Positions 39,862 to 43,173 of a DNA stretch of 64,000 bases are shown piece by piece. Made by a program: the position numbers and the translations under genes. Within the stretch, counting starts at the first letter, position 1. Every line of letters begins with the position of its first letter. The notes under the pieces were generated by a model. It saw nothing but the letters and a program-made list of their open reading frames with translations. It did not search any database and had not been told where the DNA came from. The DNA comes from a virus, in IMG/VR virus record IMGVR_UViG_3300021420_000017, positions 62,001 to 126,000 of that record; one strand, given 5' to 3'.

Positions 39862-40836
39862 ATGACCACCACGATGGTCCCCCAGGGCATCAAGCCGCCG
39901 ATGTCGTCTGACGACTATGTGAGCGCGATCTTGGCCCGCCACGAGGGCAAGAAGGCCTCCTCGTCCAGCAAGCTGACCGCCATCGCGCGAGTGCTCGCTG
40001 ATGAGGTCAGCGGCTTCAAGCGCCTGGGCGTCGGCATGATCGGCCCGATCCAGCTCAAGCTGCGCTACCAGGGCATCACCCGCAACGTGCTGGTCGAGGA
40101 CCCGGTGACCCCGGGCACCCCGGTCGAGTACGACGTGTGGGACGACCTGGGCCAGGCGTACGTGCTCTCGGGCCACGACGGCGAAGTCAATATCACGATC
40201 TTCGAAGGCAAGCGTGTGCGGGTCGACTTCTTCCGGATCGCGGCTCAGGCCCAGATCCGCAAGGAAGACCTGATGTACCTGCGCATCAACGCCGTCGAGC
40301 AGGCCCAGGACGAGACCAAGCAGTCGATCCTCAAGCAGGAGGACTCCCGGCTGATGGTCGTGCTCCAGGGCGCGCTGAACGACTACAGCACCCGCCCGGA
40401 TCACACGATCACCCCCAACCACACCATCACCGAGACCTCGGGTTACTTCACCCCGACCTCGCTGTACACGGCGGTGGCCCAGACCGACATGCACGAGCTG
40501 GTCGCCAGCCGCATGCTGGTCAACCCCTATGACTACCGGGACTTCTTCCGGTGGGACATCAACACGACTGGTTGGGCCTTCAAGGACCGGGTCGTCGCGG
40601 GTGAGACCATCACCAGCTTCGGTGAGTTCCAGTTCCAGCGCTCGATCATGGTTCCGCAGAAGACCATGTACCTGCTGCCCGAGCCGAACTTCCTCGGTGT
40701 CTTCCCCGTCCTCTACAGCCTGGACGTTGAAGAGAACCACGTGGTGGATCGCTTCATGCGGGGATGGGTGTTCGATGAGATGGTTGCACAAATTGTGCTA
40801 AATCCTCGTGGAATAGCAGCAGTCGTAAAGCCCTAA
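39862..40836 (+). CDS. Major capsid protein
   Basis: A 324-aa protein with AGGAG before ATG 39862. It has the layout of HK97-fold capsid proteins of large actinophages: a helical N-arm (DDYVSAILARHEGKKASSSS), long E-loop strands (VEYDVWDDLGQAYVLSGHDGEV), a spine-helix region (KEDLMYLRINAVEQAQDETK) and a C-terminal beta segment (DRFMRGWVFDEM). It lies after protease and decoration genes. The last 17 codons (VAQIVLNPRGIAAVVKP) are AT-rich and begin exactly where a 66-bp inverted repeat ends, so this tail is joined to the gene by the cassette downstream. A strong terminator follows. Confidence 0.88.
   Translation: MTTTMVPQGIKPPMSSDDYVSAILARHEGKKASSSSKLTAIARVLADEVSGFKRLGVGMIGPIQLKLRYQGITRNVLVEDPVTPGTPVEYDVWDDLGQAYVLSGHDGEVNITIFEGKRVRVDFFRIAAQAQIRKEDLMYLRINAVEQAQDETKQSILKQEDSRLMVVLQGALNDYSTRPDHTITPNHTITETSGYFTPTSLYTAVAQTDMHELVASRMLVNPYDYRDFFRWDINTTGWAFKDRVVAGETITSFGEFQFQRSIMVPQKTMYLLPEPNFLGVFPVLYSLDVEENHVVDRFMRGWVFDEMVAQIVLNPRGIAAVVKP
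40719..40784 (+). repeat. 66-bp inverted repeat, capsid copy
   Basis: Identical, in reverse complement, to 43108-43173. It covers 22 codons near the end of the capsid gene (LDVEENHVVDRFMRGWVFDEM plus part of Val). The ten-base end ATGAGATGGT (40775-40784) occurs a third time, inverted, at 40840-40849. Confidence 0.95.
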
Positions 40837-40879
40837 ACTACCATCTCATGAAATCGTAGCACAGTAAGATACAGACAAC

Positions 40880-40912
40880 AAGAGCCCCACGCCATCGCGG
40901 CGTGGGGCTCTT
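40880..40912. terminator. Bidirectional terminator after the capsid gene
   Basis: AAGAGCCCCACGCC (40880-40893) pairs perfectly with GGCGTGGGGCTCTT (40899-40912) across ATCGC, followed by GTTGTTG. It ends the capsid transcript and, read from the other strand, the cassette operon, whose last gene stops at 40934. Confidence 0.88.
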
Positions 40913-40933
40913 GTTGTTGCGTCGATCCATAGG

Positions 40934-41377
40934 CTATCTCGTCACGTATTCGCAGTCCTTCTCGGTGAAGTCGCTGCGCAGTCCGGCAAGATACTCGCCC
41001 AGGAAATATGTAGCGGAATCATGAGTCTTGTCTTGCTCGACTAGTTTTTCCAACTCTTCCAGGATCTGGGTGGCCGTACTGGAGGTCAGAACCAACAACC
41101 TGACCCCAGTTGAGGCGAACCACTCCCAAGACAACAAGTCGAATGTCGTTGGCTGCCGTTCTTCGTCTACGACATCGAGAGCCAATCCCGACTCTGGAAT
41201 CCAGAGTGAGGGAGAATAGGATCCGCGCACGCTAAAAGTTCGATCAATCCAACTCACAGGCGCATTTCGGTAAGTATCCACCTCATGCTGCGCGAGTGTG
41301 CATGCTTGAATCCAATCGCGAGGGTCGGTCAGCGTACTGATTACGTGAGTCGGATAATACTGTTGGTCCTTGATCAT
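40934..41377 (-). CDS. Cassette protein, degenerate nuclease-like
   Basis: A 147-aa protein, ATGA-coupled to the nuclease gene. Its middle (SLWIPESGLALDVVDEERQP, then SWEWFASTGVRLLVLTSSTA) has the same order of elements as the neighbour's nuclease core (W-x-P, hydrophobic strand with acidic residues, A-x-x-A/S-T-G-R/V-x-L-V-L), but the ETK catalytic triad is not evident. It may be a partner subunit or a protection protein derived from the nuclease. Family assignment is tentative. Confidence 0.55.
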   Translation of the reverse strand: MIKDQQYYPTHVISTLTDPRDWIQACTLAQHEVDTYRNAPVSWIDRTFSVRGSYSPSLWIPESGLALDVVDEERQPTTFDLLSWEWFASTGVRLLVLTSSTATQILEELEKLVEQDKTHDSATYFLGEYLAGLRSDFTEKDCEYVTR

Positions 41378-42066
41378 CGGTTACGCTCCTGAGCTATAAG
41401 TGATTGAATAGACTCGCTGAAGTTTTCTCCTGATAGTTTCCGTAAGTCTTCTTTGAATAAGACGACCAGTAAACGACCAGTTGCTCTATAGGCAGCCCAT
41501 TGAGCGTGCATGTTGGCTCGTGGTACTCCCTTAGTCTCTACCGCTACCTCATACTGAGGGAGCCAAAAGTCGGGATCGTAGTTAGACAGATCGTTGGATT
41601 TATCCCAGGGAATCAGGAAGCGCTCATCGAATCGCTCTATTCGAACTTTGGATATTTTGGCTAGTCCCCAAAATAGCGCCTCGTAGGAAGACTGAAGCAC
41701 GATAACATGCTCAGTCTGATCATCGATGGTCTTGATGTTTTGGTGCACTTTCAGTCCACGTCGAGCACATGCCTGATTGTGGAACTGCCGATGAGAAGAG
41801 GCTCGGTGTTCGAACTCAATGCCACACCACCCACACTTTGAGGTGGTCCATTTCGATTCGTCTCGCTGGCGCCTGACCGAGGCCGCTCTCCGGCATTCAT
41901 GACTGTGGTAGAGACGATTGGCCGCAGAGACAGGTTTGTCGCAGGCGGGGTTGGCGCATTTGGGTCGAGGTTGATCTACCCGGCGCGCGCGATTGTTTCC
42001 TCCGTGATGATTCCTAGAGATCTGGGGGACGGGTAGTGGCTTAGCTGCCCAGTTGTCGTCACTCAT
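41374..42066 (-). CDS. Zinc-finger PD-(D/E)XK-type endonuclease
   Basis: A 230-aa protein. Residues 35-60 (CANPACDKPVSAANRLYHSHECRRA) and 75-103 (SKCGWCGIEFEHRA...HNQACARR) are two zinc fingers. Residues 160-215 carry the nuclease core: YDPDFWLPQYEVAVETKGVP with D-x(12-14)-E-x-K, then a helix and the strand RLLVVLFKED. Such enzymes cut DNA with Mg2+. The order of genes suggests that the tandem helix-turn-helix protein supplies specificity and this protein cleavage. ATGA overlap with the upstream gene. Confidence 0.7.
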   Translation of the reverse strand: MSDDNWAAKPLPVPQISRNHHGGNNRARRVDQPRPKCANPACDKPVSAANRLYHSHECRRAASVRRQRDESKWTTSKCGWCGIEFEHRASSHRQFHNQACARRGLKVHQNIKTIDDQTEHVIVLQSSYEALFWGLAKISKVRIERFDERFLIPWDKSNDLSNYDPDFWLPQYEVAVETKGVPRANMHAQWAAYRATGRLLVVLFKEDLRKLSGENFSESIQSLIAQERNR

Positions 42067-42995
42067 GCTCTGGGCTTCCTTCCAGGAGAGCGAACTTGGC
42101 GTCCTTCAGCCACGAGCCACCCACGCACCGTCTGATAGGACCTCCCTAGGGTGTCGCAGACATCGGAAAGGGTCATACCCATGTCGAAATAGCGAACTGC
42201 CTCAGCAGCTTGTTCGCGGTCGCGGAGATAAATCCCTCCCTCGGTAGTGATTCCACGTTCTTCAATAATCTTGCGCACGGCATCTTGGGAGATATTAAGT
42301 TCTTTAGCAACTTCTACTATAGTATTACCTTTAAGGTACGACTCGGCGATCTCGTCCGATCTATCTGGTTTAAGACGAGCAGGGCGCTCCTTGTTGATGG
42401 GGGTCAGCCCTAGCTCTCGTAGCCATATCTCTGCGGTTCCGTAGTGGATTCCCAGTTGGGTCGCGATATCGAAGGCAGCTATCCCCGCATGATGAAGAGC
42501 GATGACGTTGGGGAGAAGGGAGGGCTTTTTCCCGATTTTGCGTCCTCCGACTTGGAACCGGAACCCCTCCTTGGCGAGCCACCGACTGACGGAGTCCGGG
42601 GTAAATCCGAATCGATCCGCGATGGACTCGCGAGATTCCCCTGCCCGAGCGGCCTTGAGCATTGTTGGAATGGCATCCTCACGACGGCGTTGATCCTCGG
42701 AGTAAGCCGTGAGGCCTTCTTGCCTGAGCCAACGACTCAGAGTCGTGTAGGGCACGTTGATCTCGTCTGCGATCTCGGGTGCAGTCCTCTTCTTCGCAAT
42801 GAGAGTTTGGATCAGCGGGAGATGCTGGCGCTTAGCGCTGCGCTTGGCCGCAGTGAGAGACAGACCCGCCTCTTTGAGGAGTATTCTGACACGATATGCC
42901 GGAATCTCTGCGGAGACTGAGATCTCTTCGGCGTTCGCCCCTTGGTGGTGCGCTCTGACGATGTAGCTCAGGAGATCAGGGCTGATAGGATCCAC
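42063..42995 (-). CDS. Six-fold tandem helix-turn-helix DNA-binding protein
   Basis: A 310-aa protein. GTG 42995 follows AGGAAGG at seven bases and is preferred to a TTG twelve codons upstream. It consists of six repeats of about 42-50 residues, each a helix-turn-helix of the form I..L...G.S...IA..LG.....V..WL...GL (for example IAKKRTAPEIADEINVPYTT and LKGNTIVEVAKELNISQDAV). A protein with six such units in a row should read a long DNA site. First gene of the cassette operon. It is probably the target-recognition subunit. Confidence 0.8.
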   Translation of the reverse strand: MDPISPDLLSYIVRAHHQGANAEEISVSAEIPAYRVRILLKEAGLSLTAAKRSAKRQHLPLIQTLIAKKRTAPEIADEINVPYTTLSRWLRQEGLTAYSEDQRRREDAIPTMLKAARAGESRESIADRFGFTPDSVSRWLAKEGFRFQVGGRKIGKKPSLLPNVIALHHAGIAAFDIATQLGIHYGTAEIWLRELGLTPINKERPARLKPDRSDEIAESYLKGNTIVEVAKELNISQDAVRKIIEERGITTEGGIYLRDREQAAEAVRYFDMGMTLSDVCDTLGRSYQTVRGWLVAEGRQVRSPGRKPRA

Positions 42996-43061
42996 AATGA
43001 AGCCTTCCTGTTGGTGCTGGTGTCTCGACAACCCCAGTCTTCAGGAAGGTTTCCCTATTTG

Positions 43062-43173
43062 TCAAATCGAGTAGGAACTCATCCCACTGTTAATAGCGAT
43101 TCGGAAGACCATCTCATCGAACACCCATCCCCGCATGAAGCGATCCACCACGTGGTTCTCTTCAACGTCCAGG
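43062..43173 (-). pseudogene. Inverted capsid 3' end with alternative C-terminus
   Basis: Read leftward, the 66-bp repeat encodes the same capsid residues (LDVEENHVVDRFMRGWVFDEM), then continues in frame as VFRIAINSGMSSYSI and a TGA (43064-43062). There is no start codon, so it is silent in this orientation. Inversion of the cassette would place it on the end of the capsid gene. Confidence 0.8.
43108..43173 (-). repeat. 66-bp inverted repeat, distal copy
   Basis: Perfect reverse complement of 40719-40784, without a single mismatch, indicating either recent duplication or ongoing gene conversion. Confidence 0.95.

Follow-up and report, generated by a model that had tools for sequence, protein, structure and literature searches.

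The window analysed here, a 64,000-nucleotide stretch of a 146,650-bp virus record, carries a major capsid gene whose product is 55–58% identical to the capsid proteins of Phabba and Myrna. Three genes lie directly beyond it on the opposite strand, enclosed by the two arms of a long inverted repeat:

39862..40836, plus strand: major capsid protein gene, 324 aa (PHROG major head protein, E = 1e-94)
40719..40784, plus strand: near arm of the repeat, capsid codons ...EENHVVDRFMRGWVFDEMV (repeat search); proposed binding site of the helix-turn-helix (HTH) array
40785..40836, plus strand: recoded capsid tail with its stop, contributed by the cassette (third-position GC; pattern repeated in cultured relatives)
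40840..40849, minus strand: 10-bp inverted match to the repeat's inner end; possible remnant, not significant alone
40875..40917, no strand: hairpin of 19–20 bp separating two convergent genes; probably their shared terminator
40934..41377, minus strand: orphan, 147 aa, third gene of the cassette operon; no family, no relative
41374..42066, minus strand: zinc-finger/PD-(D/E)XK nuclease, 230 aa (invariant E, YxPDF, KG and Cys residues)
42063..43031, minus strand: six tandem HTH units, 322 aa (six HTH matches); proposed DNA-reading subunit
43032..43107, minus strand: HTH-gene leader, with TTGACA at 43065-43060
43108..43173, minus strand: far arm of the repeat (repeat search); perfect capsid-target copy upstream of the HTH gene

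The arms are 66 nt each, 100% complementary and 2,323 nt apart, and their sequence occurs just twice in the whole virus record; a chance origin is excluded. The perfect repeat described by the first-pass annotation is therefore real, and its readings of the near and far tails and of three antisense genes agree with ours. It had also pointed to a third, inverted copy of the repeat end, ATGAGATGGT, at 40840-40849: the match is present, but with a score of 10 against a 95% level of 11 for shuffled sequence it is, taken alone, no better than shuffled DNA.

The AlphaFold model of the 322-aa protein consists of six three-helix units, and the start of the nuclease gene overlaps the stop of the HTH gene (ATGA). 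The nuclease has a recognisable catalytic core in its conserved PD-(D/E)XK residues and its profile matches T7 endonuclease I (E = 1.9e-5), while a structure search returned insignificant matches only, among them the PD-(D/E)XK folds VRR-Nuc and TnsA. Single-sequence searches with the nuclease and the HTH protein gave almost no matches, and alignment-based scans gained little. The phage collection held no relatives of the orphan or of the downstream flank gene, no second contig carrying the window's capsid allele was found, and neither was an empty-site relative.

A nuclease family at the capsid-gene end

In 24 further distinct loci a member of the same nuclease family immediately follows the capsid gene; the family is practically absent from other positions across 42 records. 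The comparison set comprised 25 distinct cassette loci (the window included) and 61 capsid loci that lack the nuclease. All 24 related cassettes are in sense orientation, the antisense arrangement being found only in the window. In four of them (L007, L099, L109 and L146) the displaced native capsid tail is kept at the far, right-hand end of the cassette, which places the point of insertion at codons LNPR|G and, by sequence comparison, demonstrates the insertion itself; at the right junction of the window's cassette, no such remnant was detected.

The recoding is equally evident. Every complete capsid relative ends in LN(P/A)RG(I/L/V), as does the window's near tail, in whose 11-codon core third-position GC is 0.09, against 0.91 in the body of the gene. 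The nuclease family is encoded by about 136 cultured mycobacteriophage records, and Bixzunavirus includes members with and members without the gene at one fixed site. In this genus 14 of the 39 sites of the capsid tail are variable, against 19/861 outside it (p = 3e-12), and the protein is identical; the comparison covers the last 39 capsid bases in the cultured mycobacteriophages inspected, where the variation is synonymous. Between Alice and ArcherS7 the tail differences are confined to the LNPRGI codons. Both the window and cultured relatives thus show a 3' end of the host gene that has been replaced synonymously. The recoded codons also occur in some capsid loci without this nuclease.

We consider the 2.3-kb insert likely to be a homing endonuclease cassette of the free-standing kind, which has settled in the final codons of the major capsid gene and carries an operator copy; the capsid gene is best explained as its target and host. 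The first-pass annotation had offered, as one of two options, a homing cassette carrying a duplicate of part of its target, and the shared nuclease and position, the recoded tails and the copies accompanying HTH arrays strongly support that option. From the sequence we infer cleavage, homing, binding and autoregulation as follows. The six-HTH protein and the nuclease would together form a split homing endonuclease, in which the HTH array would bind the codons for ...GWVFDEMV and the nuclease would cut farther along, where capsid genes free of the cassette have the LNPRG codons (the codons that appear respelled in 40785..40836 being the proposed cleavage site). Repair would then introduce the cassette along with a recoded tail that resists cutting. 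As comparison with relatives shows, the left end of the cassette provides the synonymous capsid tail and stop, and the switch point lies at the codons for LNPR|G; the re-spelled codons would keep the capsid gene working despite the insert. The 66-bp copy would represent the binding site minus the cleavage site and act as an operator for autoregulation. On this model, inverting between the repeats is not what the cassette is for. This homing model predicts neither the perfect 66-bp identity nor the antisense orientation of the window.

These patterns suggest that a family of homing nucleases has made repeated use of the best-conserved end of the capsid gene while sparing the host through synonymous codon changes, and that its traces can be seen in well over 100 sequenced genomes of laboratory mycobacteriophages. 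Annotation of the gene in those phages goes no further than 'HNH endonuclease', 'Holliday junction resolvase' or hypothetical, and the literature searched contained no publication on a capsid-end nuclease family or its recoding. Cultured pairs with and without the cassette, such as Alice and ArcherS7, make capsid-gene homing directly testable.

The target copy upstream of the HTH gene

Copies of the capsid target track the HTH arrays. Of the cassettes with at least three HTH units, 9/9 have one upstream of the HTH gene, as against 0/16 of those with fewer (p = 5e-7), an association established by counting the window and 8/8 multi-HTH relatives, the latter representing only about four lineages. 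The distance from the copy to the start codon is 40–78 bp in all nine, the flipped window included, where the copy lies 76 bp upstream of the gene and ends before the LNPRG codons. The near arm corresponds to the core of the copies found in relatives; these are restricted to that conserved core, 27–44 bp long and degenerate, whereas in the window all 66 bp of the copy match. The core persists among cassettes whose proteins are only 44–48% identical, and in one locus (L011) the copy is direct, not inverted. In most loci TTGAC/TTGCA-like boxes lie between the copy and the gene; no full sigma-70 promoter match was found in the window's leader (43032..43107). Self-comparison revealed no clear target copy in two HTH-nuclease loci of other phages (L084 and L085).

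By analogy with I-TevI, the copy is most likely the binding site of the HTH array reused as an operator, and the carried copy beside the HTH gene is probably a control switch; the far arm (43108..43173) is accordingly our proposed operator lacking the cleavage site.

Alternative readings of the repeat

The other option of the first-pass annotation was a phase-variable capsid, in which recombination across the 66 bp would flip the cassette, swap the tails and turn the cassette genes sense. In its favour, the repeats match perfectly over a length sufficient for homologous recombination, and each arm runs on in frame to a stop. The flipped form, however, would lose the LN(P/A)RG end, and a plausible product is therefore obtained in one orientation only. 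We reject a switchable capsid C-terminus, and regard it as highly improbable, because all complete capsid relatives have the LN(P/A)RG tail and no capsid gene was seen to carry the far tail, VFRIAINSGMSSYSI. Nor is recombination a conserved feature, since the copies in relatives are short and imperfect and one is direct; inversion at a low frequency in the window's own phage is conceivable. A programmed switch by a dedicated invertase was likewise set aside: no invertase or invertase catalytic domain was recognised among the cassette genes, which show only HTH similarity to invertase C-termini.

More plausible, yet still unlikely, is that the copy is a functionless scar of break repair, an inverted duplication produced by foldback or template-switch synthesis once the capsid 3' end had been cut, and carried along by a homing element. 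The perfection and abrupt ends of the window's copy would fit such an origin, as would L024, where 24 nt of the capsid end recur as a perfect inverted copy next to a long terminator hairpin. A scar accounts poorly for the confinement of the copies to HTH-array cassettes, for a core kept among such divergent proteins, for the direct copy of L011 and for a copy that still lies upstream of the HTH gene in a flipped cassette. Least probable of all, to the point of being nearly negligible, is a transposon-like element with the 66-bp arms as terminal inverted repeats, a TnsA-like nuclease and a TnsD-like HTH protein. Apart from the non-significant structural resemblance to TnsA, this reading draws on weak matches of the HTH protein to transposase and TnsD models. 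We reject it because one arm belongs to the native coding sequence of the capsid gene, present in cassette-free relatives too, and no transposase catalytic domain was found; the single fixed insertion site with its recoded tail also argues against it. Pairing of capsid mRNA with the inverted copy was considered separately and discarded, as the window's copy is 2.3 kb away and past the terminator, and that of L011 is direct.

Relation to known homing systems and HTH arrays

A close parallel is provided by the post-capsid nucleases of Bixzunavirus (e.g., Alice gp93), which share the nuclease family, the position and the recoded capsid tails with the window, but are single sense-oriented proteins with no detected HTH array and no clear target copy. 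Fungal mitochondrial mORFs are nuclease elements within the 3' part of atp6, atp9, cox2 and nad3 (PMC3630166); like the cassette, they bring a synonymous replacement C-terminus, and they leave the native end downstream, as is seen in L007, L099, L109 and L146, but they encode LAGLIDADG or GIY-YIG nucleases, reside in mitochondria and are not reported there to have a target-copy operator (PMC3630166).

For phage T4 I-TevI autorepression has been demonstrated (PMC2988022). I-TevI, I-TevII and I-TevIII each have an upstream homing-site-like sequence that lacks a properly placed cleavage motif (PMC2988022), and the window likewise has such a sequence without the proposed cleavage site. Identity is 15/20 for the I-TevI operator (PMC2988022) and 66/66 for the putative operator of the window. 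The three T4 enzymes are GIY-YIG/HNH nucleases in group I introns (PMC2988022), whereas the cassette nuclease has another fold and the window is without introns: Rfam matched no intron family and nothing besides a tRNA, and a group I intron was discarded. We thus infer by analogy that the cassette works like I-TevI without being a member of that group. T4 segD resembles it as a free-standing, antisense homing nuclease gene adjoining the major capsid gene; it belongs to the GIY-YIG family and is uncharacterised, and the consulted part of PMC2988022 describes no recoded capsid end for it.

The 322-aa protein shares its tandem HTH units with Cbp1, a CRISPR-repeat-binding protein, and matches the Cbp1 model (NCBIfam NF040595) at E = 3e-18, with a score of 66 that is far under the curated cut-off of 140. 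We know of no nuclease partner for the Cbp1 family. The target copies that precede HTH arrays provide a way to read tandem-HTH recognition sites from sequence. Conceivably, though we lean against it, these readers are modular, with each HTH unit taking about 11 bp, or one helical turn. If so, the carried copy would report the recognition sequence of each reader, and the arrays would constitute a naturally varying DNA-binding module for long sites. Six units accompany 66 bp in the window, and three to four units accompany roughly 27–44 bp in the relatives.

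The inverted repeat and the genes between its arms

The 66-bp perfect inverted repeat made of capsid codons that the first-pass annotation had described was recovered in full: a repeat search found two perfectly complementary 66-nt arms (40719-40784 and 43108-43173), spaced by 2,323 nt, which are the only copies in the whole 146,650-bp virus record. The near arm lies within the major capsid gene, whose product is 55-58% identical to the capsid proteins of the cluster C mycobacteriophages Phabba and Myrna. A third copy (10 bases) is present as claimed but by itself does not exceed shuffled expectation. 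The three antisense genes assigned to the cassette, a ~2.3-kb insert at the 3' end of the capsid gene, also held up (40934-43031):

39862-40836, + strand: major capsid gene (PHROG major head protein, E = 1e-94)
40719-40784, + strand: near arm, made of major capsid codons
40934-41377, antisense: third cassette gene, 147 aa, an orphan with no family or relative recognised in family searches and the phage collection
41374-42066, antisense: nuclease gene, 230 aa
42063-43031, antisense: helix-turn-helix (HTH)-array gene, 322 aa

The cassette genes look translationally coupled, since neighbours share a four-base overlap (ATGA), and the entire cassette is AT-richer than its flanks (53% versus 63-64% GC). 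The nuclease family combines zinc-finger-like cysteines with a PD-(D/E)XK core, with E, YxPDF and KG invariant, and its profile matches T7 endonuclease I (E = 1.9e-5); a structure search with the AlphaFold model of the 230-aa protein (mean pLDDT 80.8) returned only non-significant matches, VRR-Nuc and TnsA among them. Relatives have HTH units, zinc fingers and nuclease fused in a single protein, whereas the window encodes its HTH array as a protein of its own. A profile identifies six HTH units in it, and its AlphaFold model contains six three-helix units (mean pLDDT 79.9) whose relative placement is uncertain because the pTM is 0.33.

Nucleases and recoded tails at the capsid 3' end

A profile built from the 230-aa nuclease picked up the family at 24 further distinct loci, always directly behind the capsid gene and in sense, and a whole-record search of 42 records found it in 11, essentially only at the capsid site (with one weak extra place). 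The cassette is thus a member of a family targeting the capsid 3' site. The weak second match (G040:C1:56955-57287) lies a few kb from the capsid site of the same phage. The nuclease is encoded in 138 records of the phage collection, 136 of them Mycobacterium, and the annotations opened place its gene directly behind the capsid gene in Alice, Rabinovish, RedWattleHog, Grungle, Wally, Trinitium, Bigswole, LinStu and QBert; ArcherS7 is without it. In Rabinovish (L167, 2366-3302) two overlapping genes are annotated for the nuclease, whose domains lie in two frames, probably a frameshift or a decaying cassette copy.

The first-pass annotation had also proposed a switch exchanging two capsid C-termini, the near tail VAQIVLNPRGIAAVVKP and the far tail VFRIAINSGMSSYSI, which continue the respective arms to a stop. 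All but one of the distinct capsid 3' ends fetched from relatives carry LN(P/A)RG(I/L/V), the exception being truncated (L018); in L017 the motif is followed by an extension. The near tail conforms to this pattern and is the real capsid tail, while the far tail occurs on no capsid gene among these 3' ends. Inversion would thus strip the capsid of an apparently essential end, and the cassette is very unlikely to be a capsid switch.

The 11-codon core of the near tail has a third-position GC of 0.09, versus 0.91 in the remainder of the gene. The cultured relatives are the most telling comparison: in nine Bixzunavirus capsid genes, variable sites make up 14/39 of the last nucleotides versus 19/861 before them (Fisher p = 3e-12), although the terminal peptide LNPRGIVILRKA is identical; Alice and ArcherS7 differ in their last 39 nt by five synonymous changes, all inside the six codons LNPRGI. 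These differences suggest that the tail codons move with each cassette or adapt to it, LNPRGI being the protected spot. A 13-nt near-perfect palindrome, GCACAA-A-TTGTGC, within the window's recoded tail (40786-40798) may be chance or a binding site.

In three relatives the final residues of the nuclease frame are those of the capsid itself (GIAAVVKS-stop in L007, LASITKS-stop in L099, IATITKTP-stop in L146), the displaced native tail apparently serving as nuclease C-terminus and stop codon; in L109, RRGIATITKS-stop lies 1.6 kb downstream. These remnants indicate that insertion split the capsid gene at or near the R/G junction of LNPRG, so that a recoded replacement tail stands to the left of the insert and what is left of the native one to its right. 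Searches for relatives of the same capsid allele or downstream flank found no empty site for the window's right junction. Fungal mitochondrial mobile ORF (mORF) elements follow the same logic: they bring a synonymously altered replacement C-terminus, and the native end stays silent downstream of it (PMC3630166).

A target copy upstream of HTH genes

The capsid segment from -115 to -36 was compared, ungapped, with the 260 bases past the capsid stop (shuffled p <= 0.01). A target copy, the second copy of capsid 3' sequence carried by the cassette, was found in 8/8 relatives whose nuclease has at least three HTH units and in 0/16 with fewer; including the window, where the copy falls within 260 bases upstream of the HTH gene, the tally becomes 9/9 versus 0/16 (Fisher p = 5e-7, which overstates independence since the multi-HTH loci represent about four lineages). 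Cassette-free loci gave marginal scores (12-13) in 6/60.

The window's copy has no mismatch in 66 bp; those of relatives are degenerate and confined to a core (mean identity 75-84% at -80 to -61, 22-35% at -120 to -86), with otherwise unalike spacers around it. Between a copy and the HTH start codon downstream of it lie 40-78 bp (76 bp in the window), in most cases including a TTGAC- or TTGCA-like box; a promoter search of the window gave no full sigma-70 match. Relative to the other 24 loci, all in sense, the window's whole cassette is flipped. Its copy nevertheless lies upstream of the HTH gene, which ties the copy to that gene and not to the capsid gene.

The copy also ends before the LNPRG codons, so the proposed binding site would be present and the proposed cut site missing. 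The I-TevI operator follows the same plan: it is a homing-like site lacking a properly placed cleavage motif, and binding to it leads to autorepression (PMC2988022).

Two further loci bear on such copies. In L024, within 200 bases past the capsid stop, the last 24 bases of the capsid gene recur as a perfect inverted copy directly next to a very long, perfectly paired terminator hairpin, hinting at a trace of foldback DNA synthesis as the origin of an inverted copy. In Phabba (L164), a stretch of 38 bp about 167 bases past the stop weakly matches the capsid 3' region in direct orientation (score 16; shuffled 95% level 12); it may be what remains of a target copy, here with no nuclease.

Homing as the candidate mechanism

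At the level of sequence, these comparisons show that a nuclease cassette has inserted site-specifically at the 3' end of the capsid gene, with a recoded tail, a displaced native tail in relatives and a copy upstream of HTH-array genes. They strongly support the other first-pass reading, a homing cassette with a duplicated piece of its target. The HTH array would bind the capsid target, the nuclease would cut at the LNPRG codons, and the cassette would spread by homing through break repair, with the HTH gene perhaps autoregulated via the target copy. Speculatively, each HTH unit might read ~11 bp: six units accompany 66 bp in the window, and three to four units roughly 27-44 bp elsewhere.

We regard the cassette as a free-standing homing endonuclease element, whose principle is familiar. 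What is unusual is that the recoded end of an essential gene occurs together with a long target copy and a six-HTH reader encoded apart from the nuclease. Beyond the mORF and I-TevI precedents, searches of mainly open-access papers turned up T4 segD, a nuclease gene that lies antisense next to the capsid gene of T4 (PMC2988022), but no account of recoded capsid ends or of this nuclease family from cluster C mycobacteriophages.

In two apparently unrelated phages, a related HTH-plus-nuclease ORF (L084, 4521-5684; L085, 3340-4764) follows a 483-aa gene, perhaps a capsid gene too. In L137 and L143 an antisense ORF (about +18 to +584 and +19 to +576 past the capsid stop) replaces the nuclease gene; by eye it resembles a NUMOD4/HNH homing nuclease, and the capsid tails likewise have unusual codons, making a second nuclease family at the same capsid hot spot possible.
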